DNA from: Candidatus Nitrosopumilus sp.
GTDB lineage: Archaea; Thermoproteota; Nitrososphaeria; Nitrososphaerales; Nitrosopumilaceae
Assembly: GCA_029863275.1 (NCBI GenBank)
Contig: JAOTVS010000005.1
Span: 1-58,609 of the forward strand
Direction: 5' to 3'
DNA length: 58,609 nt
The notes under the pieces were generated by a model. It was not told where the DNA came from. It worked only from the letters and a program-made list of their open reading frames with translations, and searched no databases. The position numbers were made by a program, and so were the translations under genes. Of the stretch, positions 530 through 8,029 are shown one piece after another. Within the stretch, counting starts at the first letter, position 1. Each line of letters opens with the position of its first letter.

Positions 530-551
530 TGGGTATTTTTTATGATTTATT

Positions 552-625
552 GGGATCGTGGTCTAGCTTGGTATGATTCTGCGTTTGGGACGCAGAGATC
601 GCGTGTTCAAATCGCGCCGATCCCA
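552..625 (+). tRNA. tRNA-Pro (anticodon TGG)
   Basis: The cloverleaf can be folded by eye. The acceptor stem is GGGATCG (552-558) with CGATCCC (618-624), followed by discriminator A at 625. The anticodon stem CTGCG/CGCAG encloses the loop TTTGGGA, giving anticodon TGG. The T-arm GCGTG-TTCAAAT-CGCGC has one G-U pair. CCA is not encoded and no intron is seen. It decodes CCN proline codons. The matching ProRS gene is in the same window at 51.7-53.1 kb, though not linked to it. Confidence 0.97.
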
Positions 626-727
626 TTAATTTATGAAGTTTTGAATATTGAAAATATTTTTTGAAGATTAAAGAATACGTTATTCAAGATCATATTAATT
701 TATGATAAAGATCATAAATATTAAGAA

Positions 728-2653
728 TTGAAAGGAAAGAAAAAGGCACTAATCATTAGTATTAGTGAGTATGACGATCCAGAAATTCAGAATCTTAAGT
801 TTTGTGAAAAGGATGGGCAATTAATGTATGAAGCTTTAAAAAAAGCTGATTTTGAAATCCTTAAAAAAAATATTTTAATTGGCAAGGTAGAGTTTAATTC
901 TGTTCAAAAAGCCATAAAAAATTTTTTCAGAGGAGATGATGTCCAACCTGATGACACTTTACTTTTTTATTATTCTGGACATGGAGCGCCATGGGGTAAG
1001 GACGAATATTATATAATAACATCTGATACTGATGCTAGAAAGCCCGATGTTAACGGATTTAAATTTAGCAATTTGACAACTCTTGCTGATGACAGTATCT
1101 CTACAAAAAAAATCTCTATTCTAGATTGCTGTTTCAGCGGTGGAGCTAAAATGGCCAAAGGCATCACGGACTCTCAGGCCTTAGTCGGAAAAATTATTAT
1201 GAATGACCAATTTGCTGAGGAAGGAGATGGATCTTATCTTCTAGCATCATCTTTGAGCACACAACAATCGTTTAATTCTAAAGAGGGAGATTGTAGTGTA
1301 TTTACAAAATACATTGTACAAGGTCTTTCTGGAGAGGAAGAAGAGGCAGTAGATGAAAAAGGATACGTTACACCTGAAAAGTTGGGTAGCTATGTTTTTA
1401 AAAAAATGCGTTTTCTTGAAACTCCTCAGAAGCCAATAAAAAAAGTAGAAGGTAGTGGAGAAATTTACCTTGCTTATTATCCAAACTTTAAACCAAGAGA
1501 GACAGATCAATTTCCATCCAATGATGAAATTAAAAAAGCAATGGAAGTTCTAGAGCAAGAATTACCCAAAGAAAAATTGGAGGAATTTTTACGGTTGCTA
1601 ACAAAAGAACTAGAAGGAGAAGAGCTATCTGATAAAGAAGAGGATAGGTTATGGGCATTACAAGAGCAGGTTAATGAGATTGAAGAATTGGCATTAAAGC
1701 AGAAAGCAGGTTATCGTGAACACCAACTAAGAGAGGATTGGTCTCCCCTAAATAATGGAATTAAGAATTCACATACAAATGAGGAAGTAAATAAAATATC
1801 TTTAGCCAATAATGGAAATAAAAAGCCATTAACTAGAGCGCAAATTAATAAACTGGCTCCATCGCAGGATGAAATTAACAAAGCAATGGAGGGTTTGGAA
1901 CGTGAGTTCCCTAAAGAAAAATTGGATGAATGGGTTAGAATATTAGAAAAAGAAGAAAACGATGAAGAATTATCTGATAAAGAAGAAAATAAATGGAATG
2001 CCTTACAGGAAAGATTGACCGATATCGAATGGTACGCTTTGATGCTAAAATCAGGGATTGATGAATTTGAATTAAACAAATTTTGGGCAGAGGATTTGAT
2101 TGAACAATCAAAATCAAAGGACATCGATGAAATAGACAAAAATGAGGAAACGATTACCAGAGAAGTAATTAATTTATTGGTTCCCTCACAGAAGCAAGTT
2201 AATAAATTTCTGAAGAATCTGGATAGAGAGTTTCCCAAAGAAAAATTGGATGAATGGGTTAGGATAGCTAAAAAGTCCCAAGAAGACGGTATTGAAAAAT
2301 TATCCGATAAAGAAGAAGAAAAATTTCAAGCTATATGGGGCAAAATATCTAAAGACGAAATATATGCTTTAATGACAAGGGTTGGGATTGATGAATTTAA
2401 ATTAAAAAATTGGTGGGTAAAGAATGTGTTTCGAGAATCAAAATCAAAAGACATCGATAAAATAGGTGGATTGGAAGACCAATCTGATTTTGAAGAAAAG
2501 GAGGTTGGGCAAGGAACAAAAGAACTAGAAAAACACACTGATGCTAATTTTATTGATCCTGAATTAGTGAATATTCTCAAACTAAGACTTGCAAAGGGAG
2601 AAATAACCAGGGAAGAGTATGAGGAAAAGAAAAACATACTAGGTGCACTCTGA
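728..2653 (+). CDS. Caspase-family (metacaspase-like, C14) protease with three helical repeats and a C-terminal SHOCT domain
   Basis: The 641-residue protein starts with TTG, since an in-frame stop sits at 722 and the first caspase strand begins at residue 5. Residues 1-260 are a caspase fold: YYSGHG places the catalytic His at 85, and ILDCCFSGG places the catalytic Cys at about 135. Three related segments of about 75 residues begin near 262, 378 and 486. They share LPKEKL/FPKEKLDEWVR, LSDKEE and GIDEF motifs and look helical and highly charged. Residues 614-641 (LKLRLAKGEITREEYEEKK) are a SHOCT module, often used for oligomerisation. No signal peptide is seen, so it is probably cytoplasmic. 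Its neighbour at 2664 also ends in SHOCT. The substrate is unknown. Confidence 0.85.
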   Translation: MKGKKKALIISISEYDDPEIQNLKFCEKDGQLMYEALKKADFEILKKNILIGKVEFNSVQKAIKNFFRGDDVQPDDTLLFYYSGHGAPWGKDEYYIITSDTDARKPDVNGFKFSNLTTLADDSISTKKISILDCCFSGGAKMAKGITDSQALVGKIIMNDQFAEEGDGSYLLASSLSTQQSFNSKEGDCSVFTKYIVQGLSGEEEEAVDEKGYVTPEKLGSYVFKKMRFLETPQKPIKKVEGSGEIYLAYYPNFKPRETDQFPSNDEIKKAMEVLEQELPKEKLEEFLRLLTKELEGEELSDKEEDRLWALQEQVNEIEELALKQKAGYREHQLREDWSPLNNGIKNSHTNEEVNKISLANNGNKKPLTRAQINKLAPSQDEINKAMEGLEREFPKEKLDEWVRILEKEENDEELSDKEENKWNALQERLTDIEWYALMLKSGIDEFELNKFWAEDLIEQSKSKDIDEIDKNEETITREVINLLVPSQKQVNKFLKNLDREFPKEKLDEWVRIAKKSQEDGIEKLSDKEEEKFQAIWGKISKDEIYALMTRVGIDEFKLKNWWVKNVFRESKSKDIDKIGGLEDQSDFEEKEVGQGTKELEKHTDANFIDPELVNILKLRLAKGEITREEYEEKKNILGAL

Positions 2654-2663
2654 TAGAAAAATC

Positions 2664-3224
2664 ATGGGTATTAGGAAATCAAAACCAAATGTAAAAGAAT
2701 TAAAAAATAATGAAGATATTGTTTATCATTGGAAATTTAAAAATAAAACTGGATTTTTAAAATCAGACAAATTGTTATTTTTGGTTACAAACAAAAGAGC
2801 TTTAATTGCAGATCAGAAAACAAAGAGAATTTATCGTTTTTTTGGTATATCTTCGCTTGGTGTTGTGGTAAAAAATGTAAGAACGGATTTTAGATTAGGT
2901 AAAAAATCCAAAACTATGGGCACAATAGAATTTTGGGTAAAGGGTAAAAAGATATTTCAGTTATTATCAGAAAATGATCCAGAAGGAATAAGAGATACGA
3001 TTCATGAACTCCAAAGAGGTCTGGGTTATGACACGGAAAATACAGAAGATTATGAAGAAGAAAGAATGGCAAGTGATTCTATACAAAACGATCCTGTTAG
3101 ACCAGAGGAAACGAAAAGATCTTCAGAAGAACCTCTCAAAATATTAAAACTTAGATTTGCAAGAGGTGAAATAACAAAAGAAGAGTATGAAGAAACGAAA
3201 CTCATGTTAGAAGAATCAGATTAA
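2664..3224 (+). CDS. PH-like domain protein with C-terminal SHOCT domain
   Basis: This 186-residue protein is read from ATG 2664. A GTG at 2643, overlapping the end of the caspase gene, is an alternative start in the same frame. The first ~110 residues resemble bacterial PH-like domains: a DIVYHWKFKNKTGFLKSDKLLFLVTNKRAL pattern (shown in pieces: VYHWKFKN, LLFLVTNKRALI), then strands ending in a helix (IRDTIHEL). A charged linker follows, and ILKLRFARGEITKEEYEE near residue 159 is a SHOCT module nearly identical to that of the preceding caspase-like protein. The 10-base spacing implies cotranscription. It may be a scaffold or regulator binding the protease through SHOCT; that role is inferred. 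Confidence 0.75.
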   Translation: MGIRKSKPNVKELKNNEDIVYHWKFKNKTGFLKSDKLLFLVTNKRALIADQKTKRIYRFFGISSLGVVVKNVRTDFRLGKKSKTMGTIEFWVKGKKIFQLLSENDPEGIRDTIHELQRGLGYDTENTEDYEEERMASDSIQNDPVRPEETKRSSEEPLKILKLRFARGEITKEEYEETKLMLEESD

Positions 3225-3528
3225 ATTCCAAAGGTTGAATTTTTTAAAATATTATTTGGAATTATCATCTCATGTTTTCAGGAACCTGGATACTTTTGGT
3301 ATATGGTACGATAAACAAAATTGACTTTCTCCACATAAATTATCCTTATTTGATAATTATTTGTTCTAAGATTCAAATCTGGTACGGTTTGAACCTATTT
3401 TACATGCAAAACGTATATCAAAATTAAGATATTTTAGATTCAAAATAAATGTCATCTAATATTTTGGTAATCAAGCTACATTTGATTTATTTAATTTTTA
3501 ACATTTAGAATTGTAGGGGAATAATCTG
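3225..3528. other. Intergenic region without recognisable gene
   Basis: This is a very AT-rich spacer between the SHOCT pair and the next small gene. I see no ORF with coding character, no tRNA and no strong hairpin. GGGG at about 3517-3520, nine bases before the ATG at 3529, is a possible ribosome binding site. Confidence 0.5.
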
Positions 3529-3642
3529 ATGTTTGGAAGAAAAAAGAAGCTAGAAAAAACCGTTACAAAAGAATCTTTTGCAAAATGCCAAATTCATGGA
3601 ATACATTATCCTACACATCTAGGATGTCCGAAATGTAAATGA
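3529..3642 (+). CDS. 37-residue zinc-binding miniprotein (probable 5' part of a frameshifted gene)
   Basis: The ATG follows a purine-rich GGGGA site at good spacing. The product starts with a basic stretch ([10 protein letters not shown]) and contains [18 protein letters not shown], a Cys/His set able to bind one zinc ion. The frame closes with TGA, but the sequence right after it, read one base forward, encodes a hydrophobic membrane segment with normal codon character (next entry). It is therefore either a very short protein or the N-terminal part of a longer one broken by a frameshift. Confidence 0.55.
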
Positions 3643-3818
3643 AGTTCCAATTGACTCATCAGCACTTGTAATTGCAGGACTTGGAAGTATGATATGGATG
3701 GTACCAGCAGTAGCTGGTGTTGTCGGTGCTGGGATTTATCTAGTAAAACTTCGAACCAACACAGAATAGTTCTACTTCCTATAATCCACAGCAAATAGAC
3801 CATAAAACGACCAAATAA
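3641..3818 (+). pseudogene. Out-of-frame continuation of the 3529 gene: membrane segment plus hydrophilic tail
   Basis: Reading one base forward from the end of the 3529 gene gives [15 protein letters not shown] and [21 protein letters not shown], a clear membrane helix, up to TAG 3767-3769. A second +1 step there gives [17 protein letters not shown] up to TAA 3816-3818. The segments joined would form one protein of about 95 residues with a zinc knuckle, a TM helix and a polar tail. Two successive shifts suggest a decayed gene or base-call errors rather than programmed frameshifting. ATG 3689 could start a 26-residue TM peptide independently. Confidence 0.45.
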
Positions 3819-3967
3819 GATAACTTTTGACTACCCTTATTATCAAATAATAAAATACAATTAACGCCAAGCAATGAAGAAGAGTTAGAGTAATGACTTG
3901 ATATGAAGTAACCTAATAGATCTGAGCTTCGGCACATTTTTATCATTTCTGGATTATTTTGGTTTAG

Positions 3968-4213
3968 TTGAATTTTGAAAAACGTGATATTATTCTAATT
4001 GCAGGAATCGTTTTTGTAGTCCTTGGAATTACTCAATATGTTCCATTACTTTATTCAAGTCTGATTGGATTATTGTTATTTTTTGGAATCAAAGTATATG
4101 TTCACAGGAAAAAGAAAATAATTCAAAATGATGTTGGTGAAGGATTATGTATGGAGTGCGGTTTTAAAATTATTGATAAAAAATGTCCAAATTGTGACTT
4201 TAAAAACATATAA
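3968..4213 (+). CDS. Small membrane protein with C-terminal zinc ribbon
   Basis: The 81-residue product is read from a TTG. Two hydrophobic helices (about residues 9-23 and 25-43) are followed by a basic stretch (VHRKKKI) and a four-Cys zinc ribbon, CMECGF...KCPNCDF. The basic residues after the helices suggest that the zinc ribbon faces the cytoplasm. The function is unknown. This TM-plus-zinc-ribbon design recurs in archaeal microproteins that may anchor partners to the membrane; that role is speculative. Confidence 0.65.
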   Translation: MNFEKRDIILIAGIVFVVLGITQYVPLLYSSLIGLLLFFGIKVYVHRKKKIIQNDVGEGLCMECGFKIIDKKCPNCDFKNI

Positions 4214-4744: not shown

Positions 4745-7700
4745 ATGATCAAGACCGTTACTATATTATTTTCCGTACTTGTAATCATGACACTAGTCAA
4801 TTCAGCTAGTGCACAATCATCTTCAGCTGATCATGTTGTAATTAATGAAGTTGATATTAATCCGCCAGGGGATGATTCAAAATCCCCAACAGAATGGGTA
4901 GAACTTTACAACCCGACTAACTCTGCTGTGGATATCGGTGGTTGGAAAATTGCATCGACCTCTGTTCTAAAACAGACACTCACGATATCTCCTGGAACTG
5001 TAATTGAGGCAGGAAAATTTTTGACATTTTCATACAAACCTGTATGGTTTACAGATAACAATGAAATTGTAGAGCTTCGTGATAAAAACAACATAGTGAT
5101 TGATAGCACTTTGCTAATGTATGATATTCAAAATGATTTTTCCTCTTGGCAAAGAGTCTATGATGGAGTAGATAATGACAGTGCTAGTGATTGGAAGTTT
5201 GAAAAATCAACTGCAGGTTCATCAAATGGCAAACTCCCTGTAACTGAGGATAAACAAAACGTTGTAGTAACGATTGATTCTGCCAAATCTAATTACTTGT
5301 TTGGAGAAACAGCAATTCTTAAAGGCCATATATCTAAAGAAATTTTCAAGTTTCAAAGTGGTACTTTTAATCCAGAATCAATCACGGTAACCATCAAAGG
5401 GCCCAACTATAGTTCTAATATACTACTTTATCCAGACCGAAATTTAGATTTCAAAACTTCTTTAAATTTACATCCAGTTCTTGGAATTACTGAGGGTGTA
5501 TATGATGTAACGGCAAGTTATGCTGATTCATTTGCATCTACAAGTTTTTCGGTTGGAGAAAAAACAATTGATTTAGAACTGATTGAAGAAGCATCATTTG
5601 AAATAGTTACAAACAAATCTCAATATCTTCCTGGAGAAAAAGTATCCATCACTGGCAGTACTTCCGAGGTTATTCCTTTAGAGGGTTTAAAATACACTCT
5701 TAGAGATCCCAAAAATAATATTGTTGCTTCTGGAAATCTATATCCTACAAACAATAAATTCTCTGGCTCCATTTTTCTAACAACAGTAAATCCTGTTTAT
5801 GGCACTTACATTCTAACCTCAGAATATTTGGGAATAGTTTCTACTTCATTTGATTTGGTCCAAGATGTAAAAGAGGATACTTTGATCTCTCTTTGGACAG
5901 ACAAAGAAGTCTATGGTTTGGGAGACACTGTTTTCATTTCTGGTAGGCTGAATGATCATTGGGTAAGTTCGTTGGATTTAGAAATCCTTCAAACAAGAAA
6001 CCTTGCACTTGGAGTTGGAGGATCTGATAGTGGCGACTTTGCCTTTAAAATTTCAGATATTGTTAGACTCGAAGGGGATAGTTCGTTCAAGTATTCATTT
6101 AAAATCCCAACTGGTGATAAACGACTTGGAGATTATAGAATCAAGGTTTCAAAGGAAATAGGCACTGAAATCAAATCCATCACCGTTGTAAAGGATCCTA
6201 CCGAAATTCAAGATATTAAAGAACCTCTTTCACTGGGAACTGACAAATCCGTTTATGATTTTGGAGACAAGATTATGATTAAGGGATTTGTAGACAAATT
6301 AAGTCAAATTACATCTGGTGTTCCAGTAGTCAAAGTATCGATAAAGAACGTGGATGGAACCCCTCTAACTATGATTGGGGATACTGGGGGCGGTAGATTA
6401 GGAAGTACAGGCTCATCGGTATCTTATGATTTTACTGCAATACCAGATCCATCTGGTCGATATTCTGTTTCAACACAACTTAGCCGAAGTATTTTTGATG
6501 AGGGTCAATATCTTGTTACTGCAAAATATCTCAGTCTTTCAAAATCCGCAACATTTTCTGTAACTGATTCTCTGAATATTAAAGGAACGGATCCTATATT
6601 CTTGAATAAAACCGTTTTTGGTTTGGGGGAGACTATCTACCTTACAGGAACTCTTCCTCCAACTAGTGATACATCAGTATCGATTTCCTTAACAAAACCA
6701 GACGGGAGTATCAGTAATTTTGGGGCTTTGGTTGATAACCAACAATTCTCTTGGTCTTGGGTTGCACCTATTGCTGAAAAACAACCTAACTTGAAGTCAG
6801 ATGACCGCTCGCTATCTTCAACAAATATCGGAATTTATAAAATCCATGTCTCGACTCCATCATTTGGAAAAGATCTTTTCTTTAAGGTCTCACTTGATCC
6901 CACAAACGATAGTTTGACAATTTCTCCTGTAAATGTGTACACCTCCAAACCAATCTATGAAGCTGGAGAAACACTAAAGGTACTTGGCTCAGTCATTCTG
7001 CGAGCACAAGGGTCTGAGGGATTAGTGATTCCAGAACGAGTACATCTATCCATCACTTCTGAGAATTCCCCCACCAAAATAATTCATGAGGCTTCAGTTT
7101 ATCCTGATGTTGGGGGAAATTTCAACAGTAATTTTGAATTACCTATAACAATTTTCAGCGAAGGTCAATACAAAGTAAAGGCAAAATACACCAATAAACA
7201 AACCACTTCTTCATTTGGCGTGGTAAATGATTTTGCATATGGTTTGGATGAACCCATATCGCTATTGCTCTCATCTGACAAAACCCAATACAATCCTGGA
7301 GATAAGGTGTTTGTAGTGGGAAAACCAAACAAATTGATTTATCTTGAAAATTATGATGTTAGTGTTTTTAAAACCACTGGCTCTGAAATTACTTGTGGTT
7401 CCTTTACCTGTGGAGTTCATAGTGGCCCAGTAACAACAATTAGACCAAGTCCAAATGGTTCTTTTTCGTACCAATTTTCAATCCCTGATTCCCCTGATAG
7501 TCTTGGGCGATACAAAGTTACAGTTGAGGCAGATTTTGAAACCAAAAACCTTGAATTTGATGTAGTAGAAAAACCAATCGAGGAACATATCCCTCAAACA
7601 ATAATTGAAAAGGTCAACAGCATTTCTGAAGATCAAGTATCGATAAGTATAATGAAAAGAGAATTTGCCGACAGTGAGATTGGACCTAGAGTTCTTTTAG

Positions 7701-8029
7701 GTTCCCTGATTACATCTCCACGTGGAGAGGAGGCAAATGTTAATCTGCGAGTTGTCTCAGAATCTGGAGTTTGTGTAATTGGTCCTGAAGATATCTGTCT
7801 TGTTCAGGAATCCACAAGAAAGCCAGGGGGAATATACGATATTGTGGAAGTGGATGGTACTACCCTCAAGGTTAGATACAGCGGTCCTAATGTAGTAGTG
7901 GAGAAATTCTCAATTTTACCTGAATCATCAACTGAAATGTTGCCTGACTCTATTTGGGACATTCAGGTGGTAAAGGATGATCAACAATCACGCCTTTATT
8001 ACAAGATTAATTACTCTTCTTTAGAGTAA
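4745..8029 (+). CDS. Large exported protein: lamin-tail domain followed by repeated Ig-like beta-sandwich domains
   Basis: The 1094-residue protein has an N-terminal signal peptide (hydrophobic core after MIKTV, cleavage near NSASA-QSSS). Residues ~30-125 form a lamin-tail domain (VVINEVDINPPGD, EWVELYNPT, DIGGWKI), found in extracellular bacterial and archaeal proteins. About seven beta-sandwich repeats follow, each opened by a pattern like NYLFGETAILKG, QYLPGEKVSITG, VYGLGDTVFISG, VYDFGDKIMIKG, VFGLGETIYLTG, IYEAGETLKVLG and QYNPGDKVFVVG. There is no clear C-terminal TM or sorting signal. It is probably a cell-surface protein or one associated with the S-layer, with an adhesive or structural role; the ligand is unknown. 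Confidence 0.8.
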   Translation: MIKTVTILFSVLVIMTLVNSASAQSSSADHVVINEVDINPPGDDSKSPTEWVELYNPTNSAVDIGGWKIASTSVLKQTLTISPGTVIEAGKFLTFSYKPVWFTDNNEIVELRDKNNIVIDSTLLMYDIQNDFSSWQRVYDGVDNDSASDWKFEKSTAGSSNGKLPVTEDKQNVVVTIDSAKSNYLFGETAILKGHISKEIFKFQSGTFNPESITVTIKGPNYSSNILLYPDRNLDFKTSLNLHPVLGITEGVYDVTASYADSFASTSFSVGEKTIDLELIEEASFEIVTNKSQYLPGEKVSITGSTSEVIPLEGLKYTLRDPKNNIVASGNLYPTNNKFSGSIFLTTVNPVYGTYILTSEYLGIVSTSFDLVQDVKEDTLISLWTDKEVYGLGDTVFISGRLNDHWVSSLDLEILQTRNLALGVGGSDSGDFAFKISDIVRLEGDSSFKYSFKIPTGDKRLGDYRIKVSKEIGTEIKSITVVKDPTEIQDIKEPLSLGTDKSVYDFGDKIMIKGFVDKLSQITSGVPVVKVSIKNVDGTPLTMIGDTGGGRLGSTGSSVSYDFTAIPDPSGRYSVSTQLSRSIFDEGQYLVTAKYLSLSKSATFSVTDSLNIKGTDPIFLNKTVFGLGETIYLTGTLPPTSDTSVSISLTKPDGSISNFGALVDNQQFSWSWVAPIAEKQPNLKSDDRSLSSTNIGIYKIHVSTPSFGKDLFFKVSLDPTNDSLTISPVNVYTSKPIYEAGETLKVLGSVILRAQGSEGLVIPERVHLSITSENSPTKIIHEASVYPDVGGNFNSNFELPITIFSEGQYKVKAKYTNKQTTSSFGVVNDFAYGLDEPISLLLSSDKTQYNPGDKVFVVGKPNKLIYLENYDVSVFKTTGSEITCGSFTCGVHSGPVTTIRPSPNGSFSYQFSIPDSPDSLGRYKVTVEADFETKNLEFDVVEKPIEEHIPQTIIEKVNSISEDQVSISIMKREFADSEIGPRVLLGSLITSPRGEEANVNLRVVSESGVCVIGPEDICLVQESTRKPGGIYDIVEVDGTTLKVRYSGPNVVVEKFSILPESSTEMLPDSIWDIQVVKDDQQSRLYYKINYSSLE

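Follow-up and report, generated by a model that had tools for sequence, protein, structure and literature searches.

A caspase-type protease gene and a PH-like neighbor both ending in SHOCT: a candidate two-gene accessory module in a Nitrosopumilaceae-type genome

Do two adjacent archaeal genes, one for a caspase-type protease and one for a small PH-like protein, function together when both end in the same small SHOCT domain, and if so, in what? The question arises in the window (the whole stretch of DNA analyzed here, 58,609 nucleotides), which is contig 35 of a Nitrosopumilaceae-type genome of 1.76 Mb that is 99% complete. On the + strand, an orthocaspase-like gene (728-2653) is followed by a PH-like/SHOCT gene (2664-3224). 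Only 11 nt separate the caspase stop codon from the ATG at 2664, and this gap, together with the common strand, makes co-transcription probable. The reading preferred here, to which we give about an even chance, is that the two genes form a horizontally variable accessory module of the caspase conflict or cell-death type, in which the PH-SHOCT partner probably regulates or localizes the protease.

The protease gene and its catalytic features are these:

728..2653, + strand: orthocaspase-like protease gene, 641 aa, TTG start (ORF, Pfam, archaeal clade with support 99/99)
737..1411, + strand: caspase (p20-type) domain (Pfam C14, NCBIfam, invariant columns, MCA2 alignment)
980-982 (CAT), + strand: His85, caspase catalytic residue
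1124-1126, + strand: Asp133, two residues ahead of Cys135
1130-1132 (TGT), + strand: Cys135, caspase catalytic residue

Pfam Peptidase_C14 covers residues 4-204 in a single stretch (E 1.2e-16), and the NCBIfam profile for EACC1-type caspases (caspase_w_EACC1, NF047832) covers residues 6-228 (E 1.3e-33, at 116.3 bits against a cut-off of 140); PADLOC returns only a modest "caspase" match. With the start placed at TTG 728, the N-terminal motif of the protein and that of its relatives are closely similar (KKALIISIS). The intact His85/Cys135 pair reported in the first-pass annotation is confirmed: both residues are encoded, both are invariant, with Asp133, across 14 aligned archaeal caspase domains, and in alignment with MCA2 His85 falls on the catalytic His and Cys135 on the mutated catalytic Cys position of the solved protein. 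Mutated active sites in homologues, named at the outset as one of the findings that would refute the idea, are absent from the 14 archaeal relatives aligned. A profile built from the archaeal domains also reaches solved metacaspases (best E 1.9e-7). In a published survey of orthocaspases (PMC6426788), 93 of 93 archaeal homologues keep the His-Cys pair and orthocaspases have Arg/Lys cleavage specificity. The window protease is orthocaspase-like, has an intact catalytic pair, and looks active. In metacaspases, cleavage after Arg or Lys goes with an Asp placed two positions ahead of the active-site Cys. Because Asp133 stands in that place, its position suggests that the window caspase would also cleave after Arg/Lys.

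The protease has relatives, and they bear on what it may do. The full-length query found matches in 7 of 200 genomes of the family, which outside the window cover the protease region only, at 36-44% identity; a caspase profile found matches in 21 of 400 genomes of the class (about 5%), a few of the weakest being interrupted by stop codons. Where relatives retrieved with the caspase profile carry names, they are Nitrosopumilus and Nitrosopumilaceae assemblies. In a tree, the 14 archaeal domains form one group (support 99/99) apart from 20 outgroup sequences, and within the survey this clade is restricted to ammonia-oxidizing archaea. Viral contigs hold no more than distant caspases (24-32% identity), and a pattern scan of genome contigs with the single caspase gave no match. 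Members of the clade keep a constant protease domain but exchange what follows it toward the C-terminus (TPR, pentapeptide, trypsin-like, TM, and unknown regions). Four archaeal caspases have directly beside them a conserved Trypco1-like gene of about 85 aa, 42-51% identical across families, so that the combination of a caspase with a small partner recurs in the clade:

L062:5622-5882: Trypco1-like gene beside an archaeal caspase
L023:2436-2780: the same
L021:8815-9111: the same
L262:1993-2163: the same

Trypco partners have been described with trypsin-like peptidases in bacterial conflict systems (PMC7159879). Elsewhere in the order, a genome of another family (G251, contig 10, about 297-320 kb, loci L256 and L257) has a cluster of six caspase-profile genes spanning about 22 kb, whose tails include TPR and pentapeptide plus alpha/beta-hydrolase, among others. 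About 4 kb from another archaeal caspase lies an Emfourin-like gene (L069:11915-12238, E 4e-10), possibly encoding a protease inhibitor.

Among 42 genes adjacent to bacterial caspase relatives, 13 are ThsB_TIR and 2 are EACC1, and on this ground the bacterial relatives are conflict-system caspases. Kinship with defense and cell-death caspases, proposed at first sight of the DNA, thus gains support from two sides, the EACC1-type profile match (below its cut-off) and the Thoeris TIR genes adjoining bacterial relatives. A role of the window's own genes in defense or programmed cell death would follow from family kinship and context, and is the least certain step in the argument. No EACC1, Trypco1-like, or TIR gene lies beside the window caspase, and no ThsB_TIR gene was found in the genome (99% complete). 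Its nearest scanned neighbors resemble housekeeping or surface genes, and the Pfam scan found no defense gene of a known system among them; matches to MutT and Bunya_G1 profiles were taken as spurious. One gene of the window (4745-8029, + strand) encodes a 1,094-aa protein that combines a lamin-tail domain with domains of the MG2 type; it is conserved next to the gene for Ribo_biogen_C (Tsr3-like) in each of the eight relatives compared. The lack of known defense genes nearby would suit a housekeeping or stress orthocaspase serving protein quality control or turnover rather than defense, and a cyanobacterial orthocaspase is described as cleaving the antitoxin component of a toxin-antitoxin system (PMC7935541). 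Patchy presence, swapped tails, and a strain-specific insertion (below) are, however, unlike housekeeping genes, and we consider such a role unlikely.

In the window caspase, the swapped region holds three repeats:

1511..1771, + strand: charged helical repeat 1 (repeat alignment)
1856..2128, + strand: charged helical repeat 2, five-helix model with mean pLDDT 81 (repeat alignment, structure model)
2180..2458, + strand: charged helical repeat 3 (repeat alignment)

They had been described as three charged repeats of about 75 residues. The repeats are real, with a mean column identity of 62-65%, but they follow one another at 115 and 108 aa (spacings of 345 and 324 nt), and about 80 aa of each form the conserved core. 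The model was made by folding one repeat with the other two supplied as an alignment. Its matches among PDB folds are weak only (Foldseek E values no better than 4; VIA Z at most 3.7), a CCM2 adaptor domain among them, and no convincing homologue turned up in 400 genomes of the class, the best non-self match (E 0.008) being partial and in an interrupted frame.

The second gene is harder to place:

2664..3224, + strand: PH-like plus SHOCT partner gene, 186 aa from the ATG at 2664 (ORF; GTG at 2643 as alternative start)
2751..3023, + strand: beta-rich PH-like region, modeled at low confidence as seven strands followed by a helix at the C-terminal end (pLDDT 55; bPH_3)

Calling this protein PH-like, as was done initially, is plausible: the order of strands and helix would suit a barrel of seven strands capped by a helix at its C-terminal end. 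The fit has to be set against a bPH_3 match of 15.6 bits (E 0.022), below the gathering cut-off of 23, and the low model confidence. Fold searches with the model returned mostly beta-propeller blades (Z at most 4), with the bacterial PH protein 3b77 no higher than Foldseek rank 26. Across 400 genomes the PH part found weak, partial matches, of which the intact ones that were translated appeared unrelated; in viral contigs the protein was not found. A PH-like domain fused to the caspase itself, suspected by eye in two genus-mates (L022, L023), was without Pfam or profile support and was set aside.

Much of the case for partnership turns on the two tails:

2573..2641, + strand: SHOCT tail of the caspase (Pfam PF09851, residues 616-637, 27.2 bits against a cut-off of 27)
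3129..3200, + strand: SHOCT tail of the PH-like protein (Pfam PF09851, residues 156-179, 31.2 bits against a cut-off of 27)

Both are C-terminal and above the gathering cut-off, and that of the PH-like protein is modeled as a helical hairpin (block-mean pLDDT up to 89). The first-pass annotation had both genes ending in almost the same 28-residue module. SHOCT is indeed on both, but the two tails agree at 18 of 27 ungapped positions (BLOSUM62 score 86), and this is the ordinary level of the family. The pair ranks 160 of 595 SHOCT pairs in the archaeal family set, with 159 above it, and three other SHOCT pairs within the window genome score 88-108. Judged by these scores, the likeness of the tails is ordinary for archaeal SHOCTs and not special by itself.

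Could the tails nevertheless bind each other, assembling the protease and the PH-like protein in the manner of an effector-associated adaptor pair? In bacterial conflict systems, adjacent genes often have one small adaptor in common, and these copies generally resemble each other more closely (PMC7159879, PMC8195603); here both neighbors carry SHOCT, and among the SHOCTs compared the caspase tail has its best match in its neighbor's. The PH tail does not return the preference, scoring higher with the SHOCT of a protein from another genus (96, against 86 with the caspase tail). The only published test that we found showed one bacterial SHOCT to be monomeric and its carrier protein not multimerized (PMC3581485), a test of self-association in which no two different SHOCTs were paired. 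Since the linkage survey described below found no conserved linkage either, direct tail-to-tail binding seems to us quite unlikely.

A less specific explanation is that each SHOCT sends its protein separately to a common generic target, such as a membrane face, DNA, or a host hub, with no specific pair involved. SHOCT occurs in 45 of 61 genomes of the family, with 7 matches in the window genome, on bPH_3, fn3, TPR, TM2, and other unrelated proteins, and because it is so widespread its presence on both proteins may point to no more than a generic partner of the two. For proteins with SHOCT-like domains, localization at the membrane is predicted (PMC11237479), and nucleic-acid or other binding has been proposed for SHOCT (PMC3581485). 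Tandem SHOCT genes, on the other hand, are very rare, which suggests more than generic use: among those of the 61-genome matches that lie on contigs with several matches, the caspase and PH-like genes alone lie on one strand within 6 kb of each other. By chance, about 0.01 same-strand neighboring SHOCT pairs would be expected in the window genome (7 matches, an assumed ~2,100 genes), so that the adjacency there is more than chance, as computed after the fact. We give separate generic targeting clearly less than an even chance.

Conserved linkage of caspase-SHOCT with PH-SHOCT genes had been put forward as a check. The neighborhood survey speaks against it. A SHOCT profile run on 6,960 ORFs from 89 loci with a caspase, of which some are overlapping copies of one locus, and on 12 further regions found no SHOCT in or near any other caspase, and no caspase was found in the short flanks read around PH-SHOCT genes elsewhere in the family. 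The pair is found in one genome only, so the case for joint function rests on adjacency rather than on conserved linkage. By position and common domain, in this one genome, the PH-SHOCT gene is likely the partner of the protease.

Both genes lie inside a single insertion:

551..626, + strand: tRNA-Pro (TGG), left edge of the insertion (ARAGORN, Rfam; this tRNA also flanks the empty site of 8 relatives)
627..3838, right edge approximate, no strand: insertion of about 3.2 kb, absent from 8 relatives (comparison with relatives)
3650..3769, + strand: gene remnant inside the insertion, encoding a C-terminal tail that recurs in the genome

Six of the eight relatives with an empty site belong to the same genus and two to other genera of the family; one genus-mate (G018) also has the left-hand gene in common with the window. 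In the empty sites, tRNA-Pro is followed by a few tens of bases and then by a conserved element (window 3864-3935) and the gene at 3968. G+C content is 0.32 in the insert and 0.33 elsewhere, and no att-site duplication of the tRNA end was found at the insertion. The conserved element (+ strand), just 3' of tRNA-Pro in eight of eight relatives, has C/D-box-like motifs (..AATGA..CTGA..) and a sub-threshold Rfam match to a C/D snoRNA at 3869-3930 (E 0.27), and is probably a C/D sRNA. The remnant, probably unrelated to the caspase/PH pair, encodes a 39-aa peptide beginning VPIDSSAL, which occurs at 26 sites in the window genome (itself included) and at 16 in genus-mate G089, plus a single weak match in G083; the remaining relatives that were searched gave no match. 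A complete protein that carries it looks secreted and is EDSAP-1/PEP-CTERM-like (96.7 of 100 bits), and the peptide looks like a lineage-specific C-terminal sorting tail.

A variable site of this kind invites the objection that two accessory genes landed side by side with no joint function. The gene debris at the site, and the fact that the pair occurs in no other genome, favor chance neighbors; the 11-nt gap, the same strand, and the rare domain common to both argue the other way, and coincidence appears to us rather improbable.

The preferred reading, a caspase module with a regulating or localizing partner, fits the caspase conflict plan because it combines a constant protease, a changeable sensor region, a small partner gene, and patchy presence. 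On this proposal, the constant protease domain would be joined to a swapped sensor or scaffold region, here the three five-helix repeats and SHOCT, and the repeats may bind the trigger or the substrate. The PH-SHOCT protein would act on the protease, whether to locate it, to sense a signal for it, or to inhibit it; in the simplest case SHOCT would draw the two to one site (the membrane or a shared binding site). Activation could then lead to cleavage after Arg/Lys and to dormancy or death of the infected or stressed cell. A bolder version, which we hold to be very unlikely, makes SHOCT a homotypic adaptor, comparable in archaea to coupling by death folds or EADs, through which a PH-like membrane sensor would recruit and switch the caspase, with the repeats as a new sensor fold. 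Archaeal caspase-type proteases have been little studied; a clade of them with a constant and apparently active protease, swapped C-termini, and in some cases a Trypco1-like partner mirrors the conflict systems of bacteria. Should the PH-SHOCT protein control the protease, widespread SHOCT would acquire a testable role.

Several known systems can be set beside the module, although in the literature searched no paper was found that names caspase and SHOCT jointly. Archaeal and bacterial orthocaspases (Klemencic et al. 2019, PMC6426788) share the p20 domain and the intact His-Cys pair, and extra C-terminal domains are usual among them; SHOCT and the five-helix repeat are absent from the domains listed in the portion of that paper available here. 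The caspase effectors of Type IV Thoeris (Rousset et al. 2025, as cited in PMC12847820) are distant relatives at 25-29% identity that lie beside ThsB_TIR, whereas the window caspase sits on a separate branch of the tree with another C-terminal region, in a genome where no TIR gene of that family was found. The bPH_3-SHOCT proteins of Nitrosopumilaceae (L014, L018) have the partner's plan, a PH-like domain followed by SHOCT in about 180 aa, but their PH part has no significant sequence likeness to the window's, and their short flanks hold no caspase. As regards coupling of the EAD type, both window neighbors have SHOCT, and the match of the caspase tail to its neighbor is not reciprocated. Another comparison is with EACC1-caspase systems, in which up to 50 alternative C-terminal domains occur (Kaur et al. 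2020, PMC7159879). The window differs from them in having no 5' EACC1 gene (tRNA-Pro ends 101 nt ahead of the caspase, with no gene between), in a caspase that falls short of the curated NF047832 cut-off, and in having SHOCT and a PH-like partner instead, in an archaeal clade; it resembles them in that an N-terminal caspase belonging to their profile family stays constant, that the C-terminal domains are highly variable, and that there is a small partner gene.
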